Assembly (NCBI GenBank): GCA_017506865.1
Contig: JAFCMP010000044.1
Coordinates: forward strand, 351,979 to 415,978
Source: Tribonema minus
Taxonomy: Eukaryota; Sar; Xanthophyceae; Tribonematales; Tribonemataceae
Direction: 5' to 3'
Length of the DNA stretch: 64,000 nt
A model generated the notes under the pieces. That model worked only from the letters and a program-made list of their open reading frames with translations, was not told where the DNA came from and searched no databases. Position numbers and translations under genes: made by a program. This document shows positions 11,801 through 54,025 of the stretch, in pieces; within the stretch, counting starts at the first letter, position 1; every line of letters starts with the position of its first letter.

Positions 11801-13138
11801 GATGAACTGTCAATCAGACGCTGGAGCACCCCAAGCACTGCCAGGTACAAGAAGTCACGTGCTCCCAGACACATGCTGGTCGAGTGCTCGCTGCAGCACA
11901 CATAGGCAATGATAAAAGCATCAGCAGCAACGCGAGCACCCCCATCTGAGCCCCCCTCTGTGTCGACTGCGACGCTCACCATGTGCAGCGAGCGCCGGAT
12001 CAGCGCGCTGCGCTCCTTCACGAGCGCCGCCGCCGCGGCGTCTGCGTAGCCGAGGTCGATGAGCAGCTCAAAGTTCTTCTTGTGCTCGCGGAAGCCCCAC
12101 GCGGTGAACGTGTTCGTCCCCGTGATCTCCGTGATGAGGCGGCACGAGAGCTCCGCGGCCATGGCGTCCGCCTGCGCGAAGATGTCCGCGACGCCCGCGC
12201 CGAGGTTCGTCGCGTTGCGCACATTCGCCGCGAACGCCTTGACCTGCCGTATGAGCCGCACCGCCGCCTCGTGCTTTCGCTCCAGCAGCAGCTCCTCTAG
12301 CTCTGTCGGCGCCTTATCCAGCCACTCGGGCAGCTTCAGGCCGCCGCGCCCCGCGCCGCCGCCGCCGTCGCCGCCGCGGCCGGTAGCGCCTGCTCGCAGC
12401 CCGAACGCCCCCCCCTCGGCGTTGGTGGGGGAGAGCTTGGAGGCGGGGTCGGGGCGCTCGACGAGGCGGATGGACTGGAAGGTGCTGAGCGTTGTCGCGG
12501 CGGTGGAGAGGAGGTTGCGCAGCGCGTCGATGTCCTTCTCCATGGACTGGATCTGCGCCGTCGCGTGCATGAAGGTCTGGTAGTTGCGCACGACCTCCTG
12601 CCTGCAGCAGGGAGTGGGCGTGTGTGTGTGGGGGGGGGGCAGCGGTCGCGGGCGTGTGAGCGGTGATGGCGGGTGCTCAGCCGGTGCTGATGTGGCGGTG
12701 CGTGCTGCACTGCAAGTGGGTGAGTTGACCGACCACAATTGAAGCAGCAGGTCTGTTTGTGAGGTCCCAAATAGGCGCCAGGCACACAAAGCTTGGCATC
12801 ACTCTGATCATGTACGATACGCCGAACGGCAGCATTCTGGATGCCTAGTGGGCGAGTGCAGAAACCCCAGTAGTACACATCGGGATATCTGCAGGTAGTA
12901 GTACTTGGCAGCAGCGGAGGCGCCACAGCCGATAGAGCGAGCCGAATGAGGACATCTCAAGAAACACTTGTTGTCGGTGCCATGGCACTTGCCTGAGGCT
13001 CTCCTCTGTTTGCCTCCGCAGTGACTCCAGCTCCTCGCATCGGGCGGAAGCTCCGCTGGCGGAGTTGTTCTCATAGAACTTCTTGACATACTCACCCGCA
13101 TCGAAGTTCTCATCGCCAAAAAACTCTATCAGATCCAT
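8859..13138 (-). CDS. EXO84: Exocyst subunit EXO84 (EXOC8-like)
   Basis: Part of the exocyst, which tethers secretory vesicles to the plasma membrane. Exons on the minus strand: 13138-12989, 12597-11980, 11322-11155 and 10745-8859, about 940 residues, all in phase. The N terminus has the Exo84/Vps51 start (DAGEYVKKFYENN) and heptad helices (NYQTFMHATAQIQSMEKDID). Exon 2 contains LDKAPTELEELLLERKHEAA, the start of the Exo84 C-terminal fold; exons 3-4 continue it (DPLTYVREISGTFFGQLMDT, FCRLVMWLDNQVDQYARL). The last 290 or so residues are a low-complexity, Arg/Ser-rich tail with three DDVDDMP motifs, the last at the very C terminus. The intron 1 junction is ambiguous: a GT donor at 12988 or a GC donor at 12992 give the same protein. 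It is divergent from COG2, with 308 bp between starts. Confidence 0.9.
10562..10887. repeat. Poly-G tracts in EXO84 exon 4 and intron 3
   Basis: G runs at about 10551-10579 (inside exon 4, encoding Pro on the minus strand) and an uninterrupted run of more than 20 G at about 10864-10887 in intron 3. They are possible assembly weak points and quadruplex formers. Confidence 0.7.
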
Positions 13139-42122: not shown

Positions 42123-43796
42123 CTAAGTGTCACGATACCTGAAGAAGTAACAGCTCTCGCGGGCCGCGTCATTTATGATGCTCAGCAGCGGCAGCTCGCC
42201 CACACCCTCAGGCACGCCATGGATGCCGCTTTTGCTGATATCTAGCTTCTTGAGTGCTGCCAAGTTGCTGATCCTATCGGGCAGCGTCACCATCCGCTCG
42301 CACCAGCTCACATCAAGCTCGCGCAAAGCCCGCAGGTCACTGACGCTGTCCGGCAGCGCTGTGAGACTCATTTCGCAGACGCTGAGCGCTGTCAGCGCCT
42401 GCAGCGCTCCGATGGCGTCCGGGAGGCACGCCAGCGCGACGCACCCCTGCAGGCACAGCGACCGCAGCGCCAGCAGGCCGCCGATGGTGTTTGGCAGGCA
42501 CGTCAGCGCTCTGCAATGGTAGAGAGCGAGCGTGCGGAGTGCTGTCAGGCTGCCTATGGAGTCCAGCAGGCGCGTCAGCCGCTGGCACAACCACGCCTCC
42601 AGCCGCGTCAGCGCGGCGAGAGCGCCAATGCTCTCGGGCAGCGCGGCGAAGCCGCAGCGCTGCAGATTGAGCGTCGTGAGCGCTGCGAGCCCGCCGATGC
42701 TGTCCGGCAGGCCTGCGAGTCCGTCACCGACTTGAAGCCCCTGCAATCGCGACAGCGCTCCGATGCTGCTGGGCAGACTCTCCATGCTATCGTGGAGGTG
42801 GACGTCCAGGTGCTCCAGTGCGGGTAGGTCGCCAATGCGGTGCGGCAAACGCGCCATACTGGGGGAGGAGCTGATACAAAGCCATTGAAGCGCCGGCATG
42901 CCGCAGATGCTGTCTGGAAGGCTCCGCAGGCACCTGCCGGACACGCGCAGGGACGTTAACGCCGCGAGCTTGCCGATTTGCGCCGGAATGGTCACCAGGG
43001 CGTCGCAGCTGTGCATATTGAGGACCGTCAGCGCTGCAAGGTCGCCGATGCGCTCTGGAAGCTCCGCGAGCTCAGCGCAGAAGTTCACGTCAAGCGCGGT
43101 GAGCGCTGCCAGATCGCCAATGCGGTCGGGCAGCCTCTGCAGCGCACGGCAGAAGGCCAGGTCGAGTATCGAAAGCGCCGTCAAGTCGCCGATCCGCTGC
43201 GGCAGGCCACTGAGCTGGAGGCAGTCCCCCAGGTTGAGCGTTGTCAGCGCTGCAAGGTCGCCGATGCTCTCGGGCAGGCTCCTGAGGCTGGCGCAGTTCA
43301 GCACTGCCAGCGTGCGTAGCGATGTCAACTCGCCAATGCTGTCTGGCAGGCCGGTGAGGGTGTTGCAGCGGTGGAGTTTAAGTTCTGTCAGCAGTGCCAG
43401 CTTGCGGATGCTGAGGGACGGGCGCAGCGATTCGGTCGGCAATGCGAGTGCCGCATTTGGGGCTGCTGTCAGCTCTCCTCCCTGTGCATGCGTAGTTGAG
43501 GAGCCCAGGGACAGCGCCGAAACGCTGGAGAGATCGGACTCGTCGACACGCATGACCTGCAGAGTGTGCGGCGGGTAGGCGAGGGGACCTCGAAAGCTGT
43601 TAAGAATAAGGGTCCGCGCATGTCCAAGCACGATTCTGAGGGCGTCTCGGGCACAGCCGGCATGGGAGGCGACGGCTATGGAGGCAAGAGGATCGATGTC
43701 AAACGAGCCGCTGAGCTCCAGCGAGAGTACCCTCGTGTTCATGCACGCGTGCACCGCTGAGATGGGCGGCACAGGCCCTGTCACGCGTAGTCGCAC
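42123..43796 (-). CDS. Leucine-rich-repeat protein (LPDSIG type)
   Basis: Uninterrupted frame of 557 codons with about 17 repeats of 23-24 residues, consensus LPDSIGDLAALTxLNLxxC. These typical-type repeats resemble intracellular plant and bacterial LRR proteins. The track start at 43796 is GTG. An acceptor-like CAG just upstream (about 43813) continues the frame, so a 5' exon is likely; ATG 43742 is the first internal Met. The N-terminal 130 residues before the repeats (RVLSLELSGSFDIDPL) have no known domain. It ends CYFFRYRDT. Function is probably protein binding. Confidence 0.75.
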   Translation of the reverse strand: MRLRVTGPVPPISAVHACMNTRVLSLELSGSFDIDPLASIAVASHAGCARDALRIVLGHARTLILNSFRGPLAYPPHTLQVMRVDESDLSSVSALSLGSSTTHAQGGELTAAPNAALALPTESLRPSLSIRKLALLTELKLHRCNTLTGLPDSIGELTSLRTLAVLNCASLRSLPESIGDLAALTTLNLGDCLQLSGLPQRIGDLTALSILDLAFCRALQRLPDRIGDLAALTALDVNFCAELAELPERIGDLAALTVLNMHSCDALVTIPAQIGKLAALTSLRVSGRCLRSLPDSICGMPALQWLCISSSPSMARLPHRIGDLPALEHLDVHLHDSMESLPSSIGALSRLQGLQVGDGLAGLPDSIGGLAALTTLNLQRCGFAALPESIGALAALTRLEAWLCQRLTRLLDSIGSLTALRTLALYHCRALTCLPNTIGGLLALRSLCLQGCVALACLPDAIGALQALTALSVCEMSLTALPDSVSDLRALRELDVSWCERMVTLPDRISNLAALKKLDISKSGIHGVPEGVGELPLLSIINDAARESCYFFRYRDT

Positions 43797-44519
43797 AAAG
43801 GCCGCATTCTGCGATGCTTAGATCGGCAAACGCTCCAGGCGCATTTGGGTAGCGCGCGCTTCTCCGCCAGCACTGCGAACACCGCAGGAATAAATGATCA
43901 GGACCATCACCATCCGCGTCAGCTTTCCCCGTTGCGCGCTTGTGGCGCTCTCTGCTGTCTATAGCTGCTGAAATTGTTCCGATGCAAACGTCAATTATTG
44001 GCGCAATCAACCCTGCGGCGAGCTCTTCTCACCCTTCTTCGAACCCCACTTCAAGTTGAAGAAGCATTCAGCTTGAAGTCATGCACTTCAGATGGGGGCG
44101 CACAGCATTGTAATTAACCAGGAAAAGTAGCCCTCAACCAGCGGATGATTGAACTAGAAAATCGGGGAGCAGAACAAGTCTGCGGGGTACGTGTATTCTT
44201 TGCATCGTACCTTCAACTCGATCTGCAACTCTGCTTTGTTTTTTTCAGACGGTGCACTATAATACCAGTTTGCAGGACAGAATCTAAACGAAGGGGAAAA
44301 TCATTGCCTATCCTATGGATGAGAAATTACAAGGCGCTTAGCAAGCGCTTTTGTGCAGCAGAATAAAACTCTGGCACAAGCCCGGACACAATGTGCTGAC
44401 TGCCACAGCTGTGAACAGTCAACAAATACAAAGTACATAGGTCACTTGCCGGCCCTGCTGCCAGCGCGCGGCACCACAATTGGCAACCTCAACAGAGTGG
44501 CGCATGAGATAGGCAGAAG

Positions 44520-44549
44520 TGCACAGGTAGAGAATTCTCTACCTGTGCA
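44520..44549. repeat. Perfect 30-bp palindrome
   Basis: Two 15-base arms, TGCACAGGTAGAGAA followed directly by its exact reverse complement, with no spacer. The next outward pair does not match. It lies 1.1 kb upstream of the PLV recombinase gene and immediately before a 10-bp tandem repeat. Confidence 0.9.
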
Positions 44550-44560
44550 TACCACGGAAT

Positions 44561-44592
44561 ACCGTTACATACCGTTACGTACCGTTACATAC
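44561..44592. repeat. 10-bp tandem repeat
   Basis: Three copies of ACCGTTACAT (one base changed in the middle copy), followed by related TATACCGG-type sequence to about 44700. Confidence 0.8.
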
Positions 44593-44894
44593 CGGGCCTC
44601 CAAACCCTAGTTAGCAGTAGGGCTTTGTTATACATATGATATACCGGCCATATACCGTATATGCTATGTAGTACGTGTGGTATACCGGTCATATATCGAC
44701 CGTGGGTATGACGCTGGTATAACCAGATTTCGACGCCCTTAAGCCCTTCCGCCAGCGGCGGCTGTATACGGTCATGTCCGGGTCTGACTTTCGGAGGAGC
44801 CACATGGGGTGTGTCTGAACGACAGGGTGTGTGATTACTGCTGGCGGCGGCTGCCTGATGTCAAGTGAAAGTGTGGTGATGCTCAGCTGCCGAC

Positions 44895-45010
44895 CTCCCA
44901 TCACTCGCGCATTGCCATGATGCTCGCGGATTGCCTCCCATCACTCGCGCATTGCCATGATGCTCGCGGATTGCCTCCCATCACTCGCGGATAGTGCCAT
45001 GATGCTCGTG
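44895..45010. repeat. 40-bp tandem repeat, 2.9 copies
   Basis: Unit starts CCTCCCATCACTCGCGCATT and contains GCCATGATGCTCG; two copies are identical, and the third is diverged. It may mark the left flank of the PLV. Confidence 0.85.
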
Positions 45011-45676
45011 GGGCTGCCATGGTTCATCGCGGCATCGTCATGATGCGTCGCGTGGCTGCCGTGGCGCTGATGGCACTGATGCTATCATGCCCTGATGAGT
45101 GAGGCCTGTGGGGATGTCTCGAGGTGCTGCCTCGCTCTGGCGCCGTCTCGGTATCTCGAGGTGCCTCGCGGCGTCGGCATGTGAACGATAATTGCTCGAA
45201 CCGTGGGCCACAGACCACTCGTCCTCCTTTACTCGCGTACCAGCAGCTTGCCACATGACACATTTTCTCGACCTCGATAAGAAAATTGATAAAGATGAGA
45301 GATGGGGGCTTTCGGAACTTTTAGATTCGTGCATTCGCCCTCGTCAATCGATTCTCGGAATGCGTCAGTAGATGTTCTCATTTTGCCCATCTCTCGCCTT
45401 TTCATCCTAAAGAAAGCATTGTTAGCATACACACTCGAGGGCACGGAGTGACCTACCACCCCTCTCGCCTTGTTAACGGACACTTGCACGTGGCGATCGA
45501 TGAGCATCGGTGTGTATGAGGCCTACCACCCCACTCGTCCTCCTCTACGGATGTCCCGATGTGCTCCGTGAGGCAGCGCAGAACGGTGCTGGAACGTGCT
45601 GCCTCACGCCAGTGGAATACCTCACGCTACGAACCCCTTGTTTCTTTTATACACACGTTGCACACAACCATCCGCC
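45011..45676. other. Left flank of PLV, no confirmed gene
   Basis: Holds a repeated CCACTCGTCCTCC motif (about 45215 and 45531) and small minus-strand frames without recognisable features. It is lower in GC than host exons. Confidence 0.4.
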
Positions 45677-46996
45677 ATGGGCTTCAGTCAAACCACCCCT
45701 CGTGTCGTAGACATGGGCAATGTCTTCGTGGAGACTCTGAGGTGGACAGCACTCGATCCTGCTGTCCGAGCGGCCATGTCACGAGAGGACGTCCAGGCCA
45801 TGGTGAATGCCCTCTCTCTGTTGTACTGTGGTGACAAGGAAGACTGTGTCAACCCAGATTTCCCTACCATCACGATATCCTCTTTCAGTCAGGCATGGCT
45901 ATTCACGCGGGCCAACATACTAGCCATGGACCCAGCGGTGCCAGACTTTGCCAAGTTCAAGGATCACGTATATGCAGCGAAGGCCACCGCCCAGAGGCGC
46001 GTCAAGAGCACAGAAACCCGCAACGCGCGCGCTAATGAGGGCCGCCTCGTGTACGACACGGCGCCTCTCATCGACTGGTGCCGTGAGGAGTCCCTGCTGG
46101 CCGCACGCGCATACGAGGCCGCCCTGTCAGCCGGCGAAGACGACGAGACAGACGACGGAGCATGGCGTGAGGCATGGAAGCTGAGTATTGCAGTTCGTGG
46201 CTGCGGCGGTCGGCGGTTTGTGGAGGAACTGGGCGCTGTCTCCGATGTCATCACGTTCATCGTCGACCCCGACAAGCCAGACACCCACGTCATAGCGTCT
46301 CGGCTCTCCAAGAAGCAGGTGGTGGTGAAGGATCACAGCTTCCCTATCGTCGGGGTGTCACCGCAGGAGTACTGCCAGGCCATCACCTGACTGCGTCGCA
46401 TCAGCGCCGGACACGAGACAACTGTGCAACTCGATGCCCGCAATAAGCTGCGCTCGATCCCCCAGCTCAAGGACCTGTCCGTGGCGTACGCCGGGAAGTT
46501 CGACGAGTGCTTCACGCCCCACCGCATGCGTGCCGTCTACCTGGCCAGCTACTTTTTCAACAACCACGTGGGGAAGGAGATGGGCTTGTGCTGCAAGGAA
46601 GTCTTCGCGCACAAGACGCTGGAGGTAACTCTTGCGTACTGCAACATCGATCACCAGACAGCCGACACCATCGCCGCCATCGCCGCCATCGCCGCGACCG
46701 CTGACGCTGCCCCGAACGCTGCCGAGAACTCAGAGAACGTCAGGATGAATGCGGCCCCCCCTGCGGAAATTGGCAGTGACTTCGGTCCCATCAACACGGA
46801 GGGCGGATCAGCCGAGGACATCATATCGCGCAAGCGTGCGAAGCTCGCGGCAAACGTCACGGTCGACGATAGCGGCTTCCGTGCGTCAATCGAGAAATTG
46901 AGGGCGGACGAGGCAGAGTCGCGCCAGAGGGCATCCGAGCAGCTTCGCAAAGCCGCAGCGTTGAAGTCTGCCTGCGAGGCGCTGGAGACATATTGA
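45677..46996 (+). pseudogene. Tyrosine recombinase, telomere-resolvase-like, one in-frame TGA
   Basis: ATG 45677 opens 237 codons to a TGA at 46388-46390; the same frame then continues 201 codons to a stop at 46996. Catalytic residues of the tyrosine recombinase family fall on both sides: Arg179 (in GGRRFVEEL), a Lys in RLSKKQ, then after the stop His282-x-x-Arg285 (HRMR), His312 (AHKTLEV) and Tyr321 (TLAYCNI), with the canonical 9-residue His-Tyr spacing. The block GGRRFVEEL...KKQ...FPIVGVSPQEYCQAI resembles the protelomerase/telomere resolvase subfamily. Such an enzyme could integrate or resolve viral ends. The C-terminal 90 residues are Ala-rich and charged. One stop in an otherwise clean 439-codon frame implies recent loss, readthrough or a sequence error. 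Confidence 0.8.
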
Positions 46997-47131
46997 GTGT
47001 TTGCGAATGTTTCGTGCAGCACGCATACATGTGACCCACGCTCAAGACGCCATGTCATGTAAATGAAGAAGTGTGTGCTTACAATGTCTGTGGCCGACTC
47101 GCCTCGCGCCTTGGTGTGTCGTCACATGGGT

Positions 47132-47215
47132 GTCGCGTGTCACATGATGCATGAGTGTCGCGTGTCACATGATTCATGAACGTCGCGTGTCACATGATGC
47201 ATGAACGTCGCGTGT
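47132..47215. repeat. 25-bp tandem repeat, about 3.4 copies
   Basis: Unit GTCGCGTGTCACATGATGCA plus TGAAC, with one or two base changes. It lies between the recombinase gene and the next PLV gene, possibly in its promoter. Confidence 0.85.
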
Positions 47216-47277
47216 AAAACTTTTGCATGACTTCGCTCTGTGGCGTTGAAAAAATGCTAGTGCATTGTAAGGTACAA

Positions 47278-47676
47278 ATGGCGAGCAAAACGAAGGACTG
47301 CAACTCAGGCGCCGACAGCTGGGTCGTCACTGTCAACAGCCTCGACCGCATCGCCGGCACGTCGTCGGGCTACACTGTCGCGCTCCCCGTCGATCTCCCG
47401 AAGAGGGCTTACAAATGCACTACGCGTTTCATCGCAGCGAGTCTGACTGTGACGCTGGCCTACGCCATGCTCATCAAGTCGCCGGCGCTGACCCGATGCG
47501 TGTCGACGACGACGGCACTCTGCTGTTTCAACGGCCAACAACAAGCAGAGCCTGGTATTCTCTACTTTAGCACGGCCCCAGAGCGCATCGATGTGACGTT
47601 CATGATCGTGTAGGCTACAGCGGCAGTTGCCGCTCCCGGTGAGCACCTCATCCTGATGCACTTCGAGCCTGTGTAA
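47278..47676 (+). pseudogene. Small PLV capsid-type protein, in-frame TAG
   Basis: ATG 47278 (MASKTKDCNSG) gives 111 codons to a TAG at 47611-47613; the frame continues 20 codons (PGEHLILMHFEPV) to TAA 47676, which looks like the natural end. Motifs NSLDRIAGTSSGYTVALPVD and PGILYFSTAPERIDVTF resemble short beta-rich capsid-associated proteins of polinton-type viruses. It ends 2 bp from the end of the oppositely oriented capsid gene, so the natural 3' ends of both genes sit tail to tail. The role is inferred; the longer start at 47227 is possible. Confidence 0.6.
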
Positions 47677-48656
47677 ACCTAGGCAGCAACTGTAAATTGT
47701 TTACTGGCCCCGTCTATAACGAAGCTCGCATCCGCCTCGCAGAAACAGTCGATATTACACGCCAGCGGTGCCGCGCTGTATGTGATCTCAGCTACGAGGC
47801 TGTTAGCCGAGGTCGATTAGCCGCTGATGAGCTTAGTCTGATTGCTGAACGCCTCGAGCTCTACGCCGGCGAGGAAGCTGCCCTCGACAGAGGTCGAAGT
47901 GGGCGGAACGTTACCATCAACTGTCCAGCTATCCGAGGCGAAGAGGCCGCAGCCTGACTCACTGGCCGGATTGGAAAAAACCTTCGTTGTCTCCACGTAA
48001 GCAGGCAAAGCAGATCCGATGCAGCTGACCGGAGTAGCGTTGATGTACTGACTGCCGCAGCGGACTTGGTAGCTCCTGAGGTTGTTCCTGAGCCGCTGTG
48101 TGACGCTGGACTTTGAAATGTCGTATTCGGCAGCCGATTCTCTCTGAGCAATAAGACGAGACTTCATCGACGTCACCCGGCTGGGAATGAGAATAGCGTT
48201 GCTCAGTTGCCCCGCACTGTGAACTGTCCTATACATGCGCCATTGCGAACTCGACCAATCGTACCGGTTATTCGTCAGAGCAACAATGGCCCGATGAGCA
48301 TCGTCGGCCAAAGTCACGTACTGACAATCCAACGTAACGTTCGTCACTGCGTACGTCGCAGCAGTTGCCGCTGCTGTTCCGCCTGAAGCGATTGCGGTTG
48401 AAGCGTTCGCCAGCTCCAGGTCGAGACGCAGCGGTGCACTCAAGGCGTGGAGGGGTAGGTACCGTTCGGTGTTACTCAACGTCCCTATGACGCTCACGAG
48501 CGGTATGGTGAACGAGAGGCTCGTCGTCGTACCGTAGACATTGGGAACCGGCGAGCGCAGCCTCGTTGGGTCAGATCCGAGGGTGATCGAGTCTCTCGTC
48601 CTGACCATGTCCTGGCTGGTGCAGCAGTCGCGCAGCGCCGCGTGCAGCGCATTGTA

Positions 48657-48836
48657 CTACAAGATATTCGAGCAATGAGAGAAGTGAGTGAGTACACGAT
48701 GTTGCGTTGCATCAAAAGCGAGCAATGTGATCAGCGCGTGATGCAGCATGCAAACGCTGCGCGTTTATGTCCGGACGACGCGTTCCCTACGGGAACATGT
48801 TCTCCGAACGCGTACACAGTCCAGCGCACCATACAC
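48657..48836 (-). other. Putative spliceosomal intron in PLV capsid gene
   Basis: 180 bp, GTGTAT...TTGTAG on the minus strand. It contains a cluster of small palindromes at 48752-48809. Removing it joins two capsid-like frames in phase 0. Confidence 0.7.
48752..48809. repeat. Hairpin cluster in PLV capsid intron
   Basis: Four palindromes in 58 bp on the plus strand: AAACGC-TGC-GCGTTT (48752-48766), GTCCGGAC (48769-48776), GTTCCC-TAC-GGGAAC (48782-48796) and GTTC-TCC-GAAC (48799-48809). Three have exactly three-base loops. Confidence 0.85.
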
Positions 48837-49418
48837 GTCAGTGAGACTCTTCTGACTGATTTGCTCGACCTGGTTGCTTCCCGCACTGGCCGATAACGAT
48901 AGAGACTGGATGAAGTTGTATCCGTGCGCCGCCCAGGTAGGAGCAGTACCCGCTGTCAAATTAACTGTTATTGTGAAGGTAAGCAGGGTAGCAGTGCCAC
49001 TCGGATCTAACCAACAATTGCGTTGACCCGATCCTGCAATGTCGATGGAAACCACACTTCCCCCCGCAAAACTCGTCCCTGACACGGGGACGCTACTGAA
49101 CTTGGAGCTCACCGCCTGCATACAGGGTTGCAAAACAAGTATGTTCGCGAACAATATACGGCGCATATGTGACGTATATCCACCGTAAAAACGATTCCTG
49201 CAAAATCGAAGGTGCCAACATGTGCGCATATGACGTGTATGGGGGCTTTCAATGCCTGTGCACCGTTTGGACTTGGTGAGAGTGAATTATGCAGCCTTTA
49301 TTGACAACAACAAAATCCTACCTGTACAGCGACATTCTTGTCTTGGGGATAAGCCAGGGATGCAAGTACACTCATCTCGCAGTTTGATCTCAATACAACA
49401 TTTTATTGATGGAAACAC

Positions 49419-49787
49419 TCAGCCTCGTGAAGTTCGGTACTGCTGTTGTAGCCGGGCCAGATCCTGTACAGATCTCTGCGCGCCGTGCGGCGTTTGAAAC
49501 CCGCTGACTATGTTCGGCGCAGCGTTCGTAACCTGGTGGGCGAACCCAGCCCCGGCACTCAGGGCGTTCATTGCGAGCCCCGCTTCGGGCCCCAGCACCG
49601 CGCTCGCCAATTTTTGAGCCAGCGGATTGGAGGCGACGTCCCTTAAGATGCCAGTGCCCACACGTAAAGCGGGGAGAGCGTGTTTGCCGATCCATTTGCC
49701 AGCTGTGGCAACACCTTTCACAGCCTTGCCAAGAAAACGACCAGCGGGCCTGAAGATCTTCTTACTGAGCCAGCTTCCGAATCCCAC
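49419..49787 (-). CDS. Small amphipathic PLV protein (pVI-like)
   Basis: 122 residues, intact. Begins MGFGSWLSKKIFRPAGRFLG, with Gly2 and Ser/Lys pattern that could be N-myristoylated, followed by amphipathic helices rich in Lys, Ala and Gly (GKAVKGVATAGKWIGKHALP). It then has an Ala-rich helical middle and a Gln/Arg C terminus. This recalls the membrane-lytic minor core protein VI of adenoviruses and its polinton counterparts. It is placed between the major and minor capsid genes on the same strand, as expected of a morphogenesis operon-like block. The homology is inferred from properties, not from a sequence match. Confidence 0.55.
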   Translation of the reverse strand: MGFGSWLSKKIFRPAGRFLGKAVKGVATAGKWIGKHALPALRVGTGILRDVASNPLAQKLASAVLGPEAGLAMNALSAGAGFAHQVTNAAPNIVSGFQTPHGAQRSVQDLARLQQQYRTSRG

Positions 49788-49808
49788 GTGCTTTGTGATC
49801 TTTGCATC

Positions 49809-50615
49809 TCACACGACATTATAATCACTCAAGCTGACAGCGAGCGACTCCGGGCGATCCAGTTGCAGATCCCGCTGCCCTGTAGGGACCTGCGAGAATT
49901 TGATCATGCAAAAAAATGGCAGCGAAGCCAATAGAGGGCGCCCGCCACTGTCAACCAGTTGTAAGTGCACTGCGCATACCGTACGATCGCTGATGAGCCC
50001 CCCTTGCCGTCCGTCAGGGTCGCTGTAGTGGAGCACGGCGAGGGGGCCGACTGTATTTTGGATGCTGGCGAGAAGTCCTCGCTTCCGCGCCGGTGTCGTG
50101 TCGAGGCTGTCGACTCCGAGTGAAGAGTAGACATATACGATCTGAGATGCACTCAAGTCAACATTATTCTGGCTCGAGAGTACGATACCGCTAGAGCCCT
50201 CGGCGATGTCTAGCACGGAGCACATGGATCCGCTGATGGACATGGTCGTGGGGCTGGAGAAGGTCATCTTCGATGTCAAGACGTTGAACGAAACAGAGCG
50301 AGCGGGGAATGCAGTCGCCAGTGCCGACGCCAATGTAGACGCAGAATAGTTACCCGGCTCGAGCACCTTCGTGAGCCCCGATATCGACGGTGAGTTGTTA
50401 TAGAGGTTGATGCACGTCTGCGTGTTCGGGAGAGTCATGGAGTGTAGGCTCATGCGGAGGCTGTAGCCGTCGGCGGCGATGATTGGCCGCGGCACCACCA
50501 CCTCGACGTCGTTGTGATAGGCGCCTGTCCGAGTGCTCTGCGTGCTACTGATGTAAACGTTGGAGTCAAGAGGCAAGGACAGCAACGACTGCGTCGTCAT
50601 GTCCGAAGGACGCAT
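49809..50615 (-). CDS. PLV minor capsid-type protein
   Basis: 268 residues, apparently intact. Features shared with the capsid-associated protein next to the hexon gene in polintons, adintoviruses and PLVs: an N-terminal beta-rich segment (SNVYISSTQSTRTGAYHNDV, YSLRMSLHSMTLPNT), a middle SGSMCSVLDIAEG segment, then KRGLLASIQNTVGPLAVLHY, DPDGRQGGLISDRTV and LQLVDSGGRPLLAS. It ends SLSDYNVV. The first six codons include a GTCC-NNN-GGAC hairpin encoding RPSD; Met6 (MTTQSLLSLPLD) may be the original start. It lies 21 bp upstream of the pVI-like gene. A small ORF overlaps its 5' end. Confidence 0.7.
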   Translation of the reverse strand: MRPSDMTTQSLLSLPLDSNVYISSTQSTRTGAYHNDVEVVVPRPIIAADGYSLRMSLHSMTLPNTQTCINLYNNSPSISGLTKVLEPGNYSASTLASALATAFPARSVSFNVLTSKMTFSSPTTMSISGSMCSVLDIAEGSSGIVLSSQNNVDLSASQIVYVYSSLGVDSLDTTPARKRGLLASIQNTVGPLAVLHYSDPDGRQGGLISDRTVCAVHLQLVDSGGRPLLASLPFFCMIKFSQVPTGQRDLQLDRPESLAVSLSDYNVV

Positions 50616-50778
50616 GCTTTCTCTCTGATAATCGCTGGACTAAAATTTTTTGCAGCTCTCTCGTCTGCTTCGCCTCCGTTCGCCGGATGTTGTCGACGAC
50701 TCGCTTGTGTTTGTCAGCGTTGACGGGTGTGTCGGAGCATATGAACTTGAAGATGTCGACCGACACGATGGTGTCCAT
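50566..50778 (-). CDS. Possible small PLV protein
   Basis: 70 codons from ATG 50778 (MDTIVSVDIFKFICSDTPVN) with a charged helical middle (KHKRVVDNIRRTEAKQTREL). Overlaps the start of the minor capsid gene by 50 bp in another frame. The end carries the hairpin-encoded ASFGHD. It is kept because the middle looks protein-like; no family is known. Confidence 0.4.
   Translation of the reverse strand: MDTIVSVDIFKFICSDTPVNADKHKRVVDNIRRTEAKQTRELQKILVQRLSERKHASFGHDDAVVAVLAS
50601..50611. repeat. GTCC-GAA-GGAC hairpin
   Basis: Three-base-loop palindrome in the first codons of the minor capsid gene. On the minus strand it reads in the longer consensus GCGTCC-NNN-GGACATG. Confidence 0.8.
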
Positions 50779-50811
50779 TATTATATCGACACACTGTATC
50801 ACAGAAAATAA

Positions 50812-51264
50812 ATGGCACGAACTGCAGCTCAACAAGCTGCATTTGCTAAGTGCCTCGCTGCGCGCCGGGCTTCACTGGAAGCCAAGGAACGCCCGCCGAC
50901 ACCGCCGGCCGATGTATCCGTGTCCGCACCACCGGACGCTGAAGGCGCTGCTGTAGCGAACATGTCCGCACCACTTGATGCTGAAACGACAGTCGAATCA
51001 CGTCCTTCGGACATTGCGGCGAGGACTTCGCCCCCCCCGGCGACCGCGTCCAAAGGACATGGCGCCGCCACAACTCCTTCGGAACCGGAAGACGACCTCG
51101 AGTTTGTGGATGCGGAGGAGTTGCTCGATTACATTCATGCGCACACAGGACAACTCGAGGATATCAAAGAAGAGCTCGCATTGCTCAAGGCCGGACAGGG
51201 TCGTGTGGTTGCAGATATGCGTCAAGCGAACTTCAGCAAGGCACACGCAATCAACTTTGTATGA
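50812..51264 (+). CDS. PLV acidic protein of unknown function
   Basis: 150 residues from ATG 50812. N terminus basic and Ala-rich (MARTAAQQAAFAKCLAARRA), middle Pro/Ser/Ala-rich with two hairpin-encoded patches (RPSD, ASKGHG), C terminus acidic and helical (DDLEFVDAEELLDYIHAHTG, LEDIKEELALLKAG). Divergent from the minus-strand capsid block with about 30 bp to the small ORF start, so 50779-50811 probably holds a two-way promoter (AT-rich). No family recognised. Confidence 0.55.
   Translation: MARTAAQQAAFAKCLAARRASLEAKERPPTPPADVSVSAPPDAEGAAVANMSAPLDAETTVESRPSDIAARTSPPPATASKGHGAATTPSEPEDDLEFVDAEELLDYIHAHTGQLEDIKEELALLKAGQGRVVADMRQANFSKAHAINFV
51002..51058. repeat. Two GTCC-NNN-GGAC hairpins in PLV ORF
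   Basis: GTCC-TTC-GGAC at 51002-51012 and GTCC-AAA-GGAC at 51048-51058, both inside the 50812 gene and both in frame. Confidence 0.8.
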
Positions 51265-51401
51265 ACTCGGTGTTTTTGTGCTGAGCGAGGTGTAAATGAA
51301 ACGATCACGGGTGTTGCCAGATCTCAATGCCAACCACCCAAAAGTCGAGCCCCTCACGAGTCGCTACCTCTCACGGATTCCAGCGATATTGACAATTGCA
51401 G

Positions 51402-51532
51402 GTGAGCACACATCCGTGGTTATGTGCATGCGCCCTTAGCTGTTCTTCGATTGTCGTCATCCACAACATTAATAACATCGCATTTCGCAACCCCTCTGGG
51501 GTTATGTCCTCCGGACGCCTACTGCATCTCAG
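51402..51532 (+). other. Putative spliceosomal intron in PLV ATPase gene
   Basis: 131 bp, GTGAGC donor and CTGCATCTCAG acceptor. It contains a double hairpin at 51489-51516. Splicing restores Walker A exactly. Confidence 0.8.
51489..51516. repeat. Double hairpin in PLV ATPase intron
   Basis: AACCCC-TCT-GGGGTT (51489-51503) followed by AT and GTCC-TCC-GGAC (51506-51516). Same composite order, in opposite orientation, as the capsid intron (GTCCGGAC-AT-AAACGC-GCA-GCGTTT on the minus strand). Confidence 0.85.
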
Positions 51533-52254
51533 GACACACTGGTTGTGGCAAATCGTGGCTAGCCATCGGACTCATTCAACTTCTCCAACGGGAGGGGTCT
51601 TGTACGCAAGTGTTCGTTATTTCCCCAACTGCTGCTAGTAACACGCTGTACCGCAACATCATCAACCCCGCTCGAGGGGACAAGGTGTACAGCGACATCG
51701 GCCCTGCCGTCTTCGACTCTCTCAACGAGATAACAGCTACGTGCGAGGCCGCAGCAGAGGTTTACAAACAGCAGTTGGAGTACAGTGTAGCTCTCGCTCG
51801 GTACACGAGGGGCGAGCCGGTCACCCCCCGTCGACGAGATGCTGCTGGAGGGCAGGGGCTTCATGCCACTCGTCCCGAGGCGGCCCAGCTTTCTGCTCTT
51901 CGTCGACGATAGTCAACAATCGGCGCTCTTTAGCAGGGGGTCGAAGAATCCATTTCCGAACTTCGTTTTGACCTCAAGACACATCGCCAATGGCCTCGGT
52001 TGTTCTGTCATCATGACAGCCCAAACGATATTCGGTCTGGTGTCCCTAGGGTGTTGCGATTGAAGTCCACTCACTGGGCGTTCTTCAAGACAATGAACGA
52101 TAAGGAGATGGAAGAGATGTGGGAGCAGCGTCGGGATTTTGCACCAAGGTCGAGTTCGAGCGCAGGTTCAGATGGTACACGAACGAACCTATTGGCTACA
52201 TGTGGTGCGACTTGCCGAGGCAGACGATAACCAACAGTTTCTGATTTTTTAAAT

Positions 52255-54025
52255 ATGTTGACAGTACAAGCGATGAGTACGAAGAAGGTTCTGTACCGGA
52301 GAAAGCGGCGTCTCCTCGTCAAGAGACGCAAGGTGCTCGTCGTGAAGAAGAAGAGCATCAACAGAAGTCAGATCACCAAGGTGAACGTCCGTGTCGGAGG
52401 GGGCACTGCGCCTGTGGGCGCTGCGCCTGTCGTCGTGAGCGGCGGCGGAGGGAGCGGCGGTGGAGCGAGCAGCAGCGGCGGTGGTGGCGACATCATGCCA
52501 CTGCTGCCATTTCTGATACCGCCACAGCGTCCTTCGGACGTCCCGCCCGTCACCACAGCTCCTGAGTGGCCGAATGCGTCCGGAGGACATGACGCAGCCG
52601 CCATGTTCCCTACGGGAACGCGGCCTACGGTAACGCCACCACCGGCAGTAACGTCGCTGCGTGACATGCAGGCTGAGGACGCCGACTCGTTCGCGCTCCC
52701 AGATTATCCCGTGAGAAGTGCTGAACGTGGCGTTCAGGCGACGCCTTCGACTGACGTGAGCGCATCGCAGACGCTTGACCCCTCGACTGCTGCGGTCGGG
52801 TCGCAGACGCGCCCTGCCTCGATGAACGCCATCGGCACGCAAGTGCAGCAGTCGCTCACAGCGAGGGGATCGCAGACATCGAATCGGCGGATGACTCACA
52901 CAGGTGCCCAGACCAGACCGATGACGCTGAACGACGGTTCGACGGCGCCGATGCTGGCTCTCGAGGCGCCGATGCAAGTAGACGACGCGCTTCCCCATGT
53001 GCCACCCGGCGTGGCGTCTGCACTGCGCGATGCGATCGCCCCCATCCAGCGTATGATCGCAGATCTTCAACGCGGCTTCGGTGACGCTTCGAGTGTCACG
53101 AGAATGATCGCTCAGCAACAGATCCAGTTCGGCAACTCGATAATCGGCGAGAACCGTGAGGCGAAGAGGGAGGTGAGGACGCTTTTCGATACCCTCCGAG
53201 GCGAGCTGCCGCGCCATGTCCCGCCGAGCGGCATGCCGGCGGGACCCGTCAACGCTGGACCTGGAGACCCTCGTGTTTACCAGGACAAGGGGACGACGTG
53301 CCTGGAGATTCATCCGTGGATTTTGACGCCGCCGCCGCCGTCGTGCCGCCGCCGCCGCCCGCGCAACACCCGCAGAAGCTGCAGCGGCGGTGGCAGCGGC
53401 GATGGAGGCGATGCGCGCCGCCGCGCCCCCAGCGCCCGCAGCGGCGCCGCTACCGGACTTCAACGCCGCCGCATCGATGGGGCCGGCGCCCGACGCAGCG
53501 CCGTTCGAGGCGCCGCCCAAGCCGAAGAGCAAGCGCGTACTCAACAAGTTATTTGACCACCTCTACCACCAAGGGAGAACGCACGGCGACGCCACGCTGA
53601 TCGCTGCGGCGAACACGGCGACCGATGCACTCAAGGGGAAAAGTCCAGACCTGATGGCGCTCACAATGGAGTCGTTGAAGCTGATCAAGCAGGCGAAGCA
53701 GCTGGAGGTGGCAAGACAGGCGTTCGGTCTGCAGGAGAGGGAGACGGCAGCAGCTGGGAAAGACAAGAGGAAGCCACCGAAAACCCACATCGTGGAAGGG
53801 ACCAAGACGCGAGCCAAGGCGCGCGCCGAGAGCGCGCAACGAAGCGCGCCGCCAAGCGCAGGCGAAAATAGAGGTGTACGCGCGCATTCCGCTGTGAGCG
53901 CTTCACCCATTCCGGCTGCAAGAAGCCTGGTGCATCAGGCGGCATCGACGGCCAAGTGCGTGACAGCTTTGCGCACTGGCGCTGCACGTCAGCGTCGCCC
54001 GCATGCATGCGCATGTCCGCCGTGA
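52255..54025 (+). pseudogene. PLV basic core-like protein, frameshifted
   Basis: Starts at ATG 52255 or 52273 (MSTKKVLYRRKRRLLVKRRK), a very basic N terminus typical of DNA-binding core proteins. Then a Gly/Ser run, a Pro-rich region holding three hairpins, repeats of SQT/GTQ type, and a helical part (IAPIQRMIADLQRGFGD). Frame 1 is protein-like to about 53290; the next segment (VPGDSSVDFDAAAAVV) is in another frame, and from about 53360 a third frame carries LPDFNAAASMGP, KPKSKRVLNKLFDHLYHQGR and LMALTMESLKLIKQAKQLEV. So two frameshifts lie in GC-rich triplet repeats, unless these are two genes. The end is uncertain: an alternative frame stops at about 53868 after a basic RRR tail. Confidence 0.55.
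52529..52619. repeat. Hairpin cluster in PLV core gene
   Basis: CGTCC-TTC-GGACG (52528-52540), GTCC-GGA-GGAC (52578-52588) and GTTCCC-TAC-GGGAAC (52605-52619). The last is identical over 15 bases to the one in the capsid intron at 48782. Confidence 0.85.

Follow-up and report, generated by a model that had tools for sequence, protein, structure and literature searches.

A 32-nt unit made of two adjacent hairpins recurs in a fixed form within a partial provirus of a polinton-like virus (PLV) in the genome of the xanthophyte alga Tribonema minus. The window analyzed, a stretch of 64,000 nucleotides (C44:351979-415978 of the 158-Mb, 554-contig assembly), contains this provirus from about 47.2 kb to 53.88 kb, with a minus-strand capsid gene, a penton-like gene (a label given in this analysis; we retain the term PLV), a packaging ATPase gene and further genes. 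Contig C75 carries 13 kb of the same provirus, with no mismatches, one 21-base difference and a few indels of 1-2 bases, and the two copies were counted as one provirus. A sequence-only reading of the window had pointed to composite hairpins in the capsid and ATPase introns; the observation was confirmed and proved to be understated, and the interpretation attached to it, an introner-like or double-hairpin unit that spreads in the virus, was partly supported. We consider it probable, with some reserve, that the unit is a miniature, non-coding double-hairpin DNA repeat that multiplied within this one provirus and settled in DNA tolerant of additions.

Read on the minus strand, the unit is GC-[4 bp, 3-nt loop, 4 bp]-AT-[6 bp, 3-nt loop, 6 bp]-GC and exactly 32 nt long, and four stretches (A1, A2, B, and C) aligned without gaps in one register. 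On the plus strand, the capsid intron reads GC AAACGC-TGC-GCGTTT AT GTCCGGACGAC GC and the ATPase intron GC AACCCC-TCT-GGGGTT AT GTCC-TCC-GGAC GC; the order of the parts is the same in both composites, as had been described, and so is the strand, although the two genes are oppositely oriented. Unit A1 in the capsid intron (48750-48781, minus strand) is GC-[GTCG TCC GGAC]-AT-[AAACGC GCA GCGTTT]-GC, with the inner pair of its short stem broken. Its short palindrome, which the sequence-only reading gave as loop-less GTCCGGAC, is better taken, in register with the other units, for an 11-nt 4-3-4 hairpin (GTCG-TCC-GGAC on the minus strand). Unit A2 (48780-48811, minus strand), GC-[GTTC GGA GAAC]-AT-[GTTCCC GTA GGGAAC]-GC, stands in tandem with A1, one GC being common to both; it was missing from the sequence-only reading. 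The ATPase intron has a single unit, B (51487-51518, minus strand; GC-[GTCC GGA GGAC]-AT-[AACCCC AGA GGGGTT]-GC), and units also occur outside introns. Unit C (50582-50613, minus strand; GC-[GTCC TTC GGAC]-AT-[GACGAC GCA GTCGTT]-GC, outer pair G.T) is non-intronic and lies over the start of the penton-like gene: the deposited protein P0007 begins MTTQ within it, and an in-frame ATG at its upstream edge opens a longer open reading frame (ORF), 49809-50615. A covariance model built from these four units (model R1) gave its training sequences scores of 31.9 (A1), 44.5 (A2), 45 (B), and 43.7 bits (C).

What the stems conserve is their pairing, not their sequence, as the sequence-only reading had claimed. 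In the four units, 97.5% of 40 cells were paired, compared to 76.1% in column shuffles, and pairing fell to 52.5% or less when the partners were slid by 1-3 columns. Every cell of the 6-bp helix was paired, and five of its six pairs were altered on both sides. A stronger test than this pairing control came from running model R1 on 17 loci, which recovered a complete fifth unit that had been held out (C75:312949-312980; 29.6 bits, E 6e-6). This unit differs from the other four in its long stem and has AT in place of the first GC; it is located 102 nt past the stop of the integrase homologue on C75. With five units, 96% of the cells were paired, six of the ten pairs were altered on both sides, and the covariation score was 0.62 vs. 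0.20.

The fixed form was far more frequent than expected by chance. Strict units, defined as having GC at both ends and at least 3/4 and 6/6 pairs with wobble allowed on either strand, numbered four in 6,680 bases, compared to a mean of 0.006 and a maximum of 1 in 2,000 dinucleotide shuffles; no shuffle contained as many. Hairpin-AT-hairpin composites were found three times in the PLV and once elsewhere in the window (300 dinucleotide-shuffled versions of the PLV gave a mean of 0.01 and at most 1). The word GTCC-N3-GGAC occurred six times in 48601-52700 (mean 0.068, maximum 1, in 500 shuffles), and seven of the eight GTCC palindromes with loops of 0-6 nt in the window fell within 48.7-52.6 kb. 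The rest of the window contained no strict unit, and 1.27 Mb of other fetched loci contained five, one of them in a PLV-bearing locus (L046) and one (L076) in a locus preselected for the short-hairpin word; only the L076 unit had GTCC arms. We give practically no credence to the idea that common hairpins occur here by chance and that two of them were picked out. Composites with any spacer of 0-4 nt were indeed unremarkable (12 of 300 shuffles reached the observed seven), a looser form of the unit was observed six times against a shuffle mean of 1.5 and a maximum of 7, and the overall hairpin density of the region was not raised. Since the looser form and the any-spacer composites are common, the fixed form is what counts, and for this form chance was refuted by the strict-unit test. 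The fixed form and the GTCC word exceeded every shuffle, and the held-out unit was recovered.

Four degenerate copies are spread over two ORFs. Copy D (52576-52621, plus strand; GC-[GTCC GGA GGAC]-AT, 12 nt, AT-[GTTCCC TAC GGGAAC]-GC), which is in frame with ORF 52255-53556, can be read as a pair of truncated units and matched model R1 at 52576-52601 with an E of 1.5e-4. Copy E in ORF 50812-51264 (51046-51068, plus strand; GC-[GTCC AAA GGAC]-AT followed by a short GGC-GCC-GCC) is truncated and matched with an E of 3.8e-4; both D and E are outside the training set. The other two rest on the GTCC-N3-GGAC word. Copy F (51000-51031, plus strand, ORF 50812-51264; AC-[GTCC TTC GGAC]-AT-15 nt-GC) has the full 32-nt geometry with its long stem mostly unpaired and a model E of only 0.11, and copy G (52527-52546, plus strand, ORF 52255-53556; GC-[GTCC TTC GGAC]-GT) is a short hairpin alone with an E of only 0.08. 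Both were outranked by a match at window position 12164 (E 0.0075; about 0.06 in another run) that was treated as chance, as was a match at C75:302017 (E 0.009 and 0.03). The total is nine copies or fragments in both orientations, of which six (C, D, E, F, G, and the C75 unit) lie outside introns.

The expectation of further copies in the genome was half borne out: pattern searches found none outside the provirus, and several more are present inside it. The scaffold GCGTYCNNNGRACAT-N15-GC, a pattern blind to A1 and to the fifth unit, had nine matches in the 158-Mb assembly compared to six for the reversed control. Six of the nine were A2, B, and C on both provirus contigs, with 6/6 long-stem pairs, and the other three had 2, 4, and 3 pairs. 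The host-wide patterns GTCCNNNGGACGC (337 places vs. 710 reversed), ATGTYCNNNGRACGC (57, including 10 in the provirus on its two contigs, vs. 75 reversed), and GTTCCCNNNGGGAAC (nine sites, four in the provirus, vs. 23 reversed) were each less frequent than their reversed controls. A covariance search of the kind suggested earlier, with a model of all five units, covered 303 kb in 35 sources, namely the window, two pieces of C75 (L012 and L014), and other PLV loci; the whole assembly was covered by pattern only. Outside the provirus this search gave no match below E 0.02, the best being 0.027 and 0.055 (A1, which overlaps A2, is unlisted in it). In 219 kb of other, partly overlapping PLV-bearing loci there was one GTCC-N3-GGAC and no AT/GC-flanked form, three sites of pattern matches on contig C133 inspected by eye had no adjoining long hairpin, and a scan for dominant palindrome words in 15 other PLV-bearing regions returned mostly low-complexity words. 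Searches of IMG/VR with the capsid, as a single protein and then as an alignment, found no relatives. Element patterns found 9, 1, and 109 stretches there; one of the ten loci from the first two patterns had a single GTCC-N3-GGAC and the others none. Among the 80 of the 109 stretches that were tested, four had 5/6 long-stem pairs and none had six when wobbles were counted on one strand. These were taken as chance, as was the IMG/VR locus L076, which reaches six long-stem pairs when wobbles on either strand count.

Both introns are private to this provirus. The predicted ATPase intron (51402-51532, plus strand) is 131 nt long (GTGAGC...CTCAG), and the predicted capsid intron is contained in a private insert of 195 nt (48657-48851, minus strand) with the acceptor TTGTAG; GT donors in phase lie at 48836 and 48815, and their use would leave 15 and 36 extra nt, respectively. 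The deposited gene model P0007 uses the same capsid acceptor, joined to the penton-like exon. In the 158-Mb assembly, each intron matched C44 and C75 only. The capsid junction was uninterrupted in all 19 other proviral loci compared, out of 23 such loci, with a one-column gap in one of the 19, and the ATPase junction was uninterrupted in all eight other loci examined. It has been suggested that the unit is introner-like. As an introner, the unit or a larger segment bearing it would insert into genes, be spliced out and have created both introns. That both private introns bear the unit and are absent from relatives speaks for this origin, which we nevertheless regard as improbable. Outside the units, the similarity of the two introns does not exceed that of shuffled sequences (score 15.0, shuffle mean 15.1, 261 of 500 shuffles as high), neither has another copy apart from C75, and most copies of the unit are non-intronic. 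The units are internal to the introns, with the splice sites outside them. In the capsid intron they run in the sense direction of the gene, and in the ATPase intron in the antisense direction. Under the explanation that we prefer, the unit did not give rise to the introns.

Among the close PLVs of this genome, the introns of the capsid gene change very readily. Contig C157 has four GT-AG introns in the capsid gene (95, 105, 106, and 85 nt; C157:1093037-1094666, L037) with no clear mutual likeness; the first is common to C112 and C57, C133 has one intron elsewhere, and C146 has none.

The loops of the hairpins point to DNA. In model orientation, the long-hairpin loops were GCA, GTA, AGA, GCA, and GAA (GNA in four of five), all closed by an invariant C-G pair. 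The short-hairpin loops (TCC, GGA, GGA, TTC, GAA, GGA, AAA, TTC, and TTC) were GNA on one or other strand in eight of nine, compared to 30 of 381 among the 4-bp hairpins with 3-nt loops that form the background elsewhere in the window; the pattern was noticed post hoc, the copies are related and no probability is assigned to it. Extraordinary stability and nuclease resistance have been described for DNA mini-hairpins that combine a GNA loop with two or more G-C pairs (PMC4686876). The GNA-type loops suggest hairpins of single-stranded DNA. Selection of the units as RNA structures, serving as splicing, processing, or RNA-binding signals, would account for the compensatory changes and agrees with folding energies that are modestly low in six segments (z -1.0 to -2.5). 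We consider it just as improbable as the introner origin: the units are sense in some genes and antisense in others, the predicted RNA folds do not contain both hairpins together, Rfam gave no family for 44000-54000 at E up to 1, and the loops fit the stable DNA loop GNA.

Conservation is far higher in the half-sites GTYC/GRAC, the AT and the GC than it is in the long stem. This conservation, and the occurrence of copies in both orientations and also in coding DNA, would fit GTCC-N3-GGAC palindromes that are scattered sites for a dimeric DNA-binding protein of this virus lineage involved in replication, packaging, recombination, or silencing, with the second hairpin as part of the recognized structure. 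A sequence-specific site leaves unexplained why the long stem varies freely yet stays paired, and sister PLVs with the same genes are without the sites. The copies are in private stretches, and, except for C at the penton start, none was placed at a promoter-like position. A role as binding sites is accordingly a possible but unlikely explanation.

A repeat that multiplies in viral DNA is the explanation that we prefer. Copies would arise by insertion, possibly at GC dinucleotides because the tandem pair A1/A2 has one GC in common, and would settle where extra DNA is tolerated, that is, in two introns, at a gene start, in a 3' flank, and in flexible linkers of two proteins. The hairpins may act as single-stranded DNA, for example during virus replication, and the arms would stay paired through fold-back copying or selection. 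The proposed spread in the virus is supported by several copies, one of them found after the model was built, and by host stretches that relatives do not have. Contigs C157, C112, and C57 are without the 69 in-frame nucleotides around copy D (C146 and C133 are likewise shorter there, with poorer alignment), and compared to the same three contigs the stretch holding copy G has 9 additional nt. Mobility is something we infer. A bolder form of this proposal is a viral micro-element borne on single-stranded DNA, in which replication would rewrite the long stem of each copy, through fold-back copying at a hairpin with a GNA loop, and the geometry would be inherited; the stems would therefore change in pairs. 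We regard this form as rather unlikely. If true, the unit would propagate itself, handing down shape more than sequence, and would count as a double-hairpin element in a nuclear DNA virus.

Several observations weigh against multiplication of a hairpin repeat, in addition to the post hoc nature of the loop pattern. The carrier is one provirus on two contigs only, and for this reason the copies are undatable. The stretches holding A, B, and D are absent from relatives, but the private stretch was never the unit alone. No clean-ended insertion was seen and no target-site duplication was shown. No transposase or other moving enzyme was found, and no Y1/HUH enzyme was present in the few PLV genes scanned with Pfam. 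In minimum-energy folds of natural segments (six folded as RNA and four as DNA), the two hairpins of a unit never formed together; the long hairpin was present in most and the short hairpin only in E. Energy tables give the short stems little stability (-0.3 to -1.1 kcal/mol). The pairing control leans toward the structure because the structure was derived from the same sequences, only the fifth unit, D, and E were held out from the unit definition, and the match at 12164 indicates that model scores near E 0.0075 arise by chance.

Double-hairpin elements (DHEs) were reportedly first described by Paquin, Laforest and Lang in 2000, in Allomyces, and DHE stems are kept by paired changes. The unit shares this behavior, and it likewise has two hairpins with a short spacer at dispersed sites, with five complete copies, of which all but the one on C75 are in the window. 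DHEs occur in fungal mitochondrial DNA, first in Allomyces, as two adjacent hairpins in dispersed copies that are optional between relatives and are taken as mobile (PMC7218506, PMC5910586); here, the stretches that hold A, B, and D are absent from relatives, although none of these stretches consists of the unit alone. Unlike the fungal elements, the unit belongs to an integrated DNA virus rather than an organelle, is GC-rich, and has one strict 4-3-4 / 6-3-6 geometry. The provirus on C44 is flanked by other DNA, with a leucine-rich repeat (LRR) gene on its left, and its location is not mitochondrial. The unit resembles mitochondrial hairpin repeats in form, spread, and tolerance, and we do not file it as a DHE because it is not in an organelle.

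Other short repeats share some of these features. Sponge mitochondrial DNA contains repetitive hairpin-forming elements (PMC2800124), and Volvox organelles contain short palindromic repeats averaging 50 nt, whose nuclear copies are held to be inert transfers from organelles (PMC2670323). Like the unit, these repeats are intergenic and intronic, sometimes genic, often tandem or nested, and found in both orientations; unlike the unit, they are organellar and longer and have far more copies. Candidate introners have been reported in mirusvirus capsid genes (PMC9860276, PMC12768974). As with introners, the unit is present in introns absent from the relatives' sites, but of the three introner features tested, shared intron sequence and many intron copies were lacking: the introns are alike only in the unit and are single-copy, and most unit copies are non-intronic. 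Bacterial REP/REPIN hairpins, which are moved by Y1 (RAYT) transposases, are similar in that they are pairs of very small hairpins whose stems covary and which carry a short conserved word. They are bacterial, however, and no Y1/HUH gene was seen among the few PLV genes scanned. In the literature as far as it was accessible, our search found no report of such a unit in a viral provirus.

The provirus is related to one on C146 (66-79% identity across the longer aligned blocks). The predicted structure of the capsid homologue P0005 (mean predicted local distance difference test score, pLDDT, 60.3) matched the PBCV-1, virophage, and PRD1 capsids and a Tetraselmis virus protein, and the provirus is thus predicted to encode the double-jelly-roll major capsid protein of PLVs. 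The packaging ATPase has a Walker A motif, and its homologues carry PF04665 and include a Heterococcus protein; the C146 ATPase matched Pox_A32 weakly, below the cut-off (E 0.0012). The C146 provirus has an rve integrase (Pfam, E 5.5e-12). The C44 copy stops at window position 53879, before the integrase, and C75 runs on (C75:316010) and reaches a homologue of the C146 integrase; the reading frame of this C75 homologue is itself broken. Small indels relative to C75 in the final 600 bases of the C44 copy may reflect assembly trouble. Self-comparison of the window and of 30 kb of C75 gave no terminal inverted repeats, and that of 20 kb of C146 gave only a local repeat; the ends of the provirus are not defined. 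Exon 2 of the ATPase gene (51533-52241) has frameshifts and stops in the C44 copy, and the provirus is therefore decaying; the penton-like ORF is open.

At least 23 more loci besides C44 and C75 have a whole or partial PLV-type capsid gene, with contig duplicates possible. Part of the region of ORF 52255-53556 (52653-53860) is 77-79% identical to other PLVs, compared to 64-69% over most of the rest, which may reflect either stronger constraint or exchange. Short repeats of the GTGTCGCGTGTCACATGATGCATGA type (47135-47211) lie immediately upstream of ORF 47227-47613. The LRR gene left of the provirus (42126-43817, minus strand; LRR_14, E 1.8e-51) is probably a host gene. A perfect 30-base palindrome is present to the left of each of two proviruses, at 44520-44549 in the window and on C146 at L015:6806-6835, and the two sequences differ.

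The double-hairpin repeats described so far are from organelles, and no mover is known for them. A fixed 32-nt unit with paired stem changes and GNA loops, carried by a small DNA provirus, would link repeats of this kind to the replication of viral DNA and would offer a system for testing fold-back copying against insertion. Private introns of viral capsid genes that have a repeat in common need not be introners.

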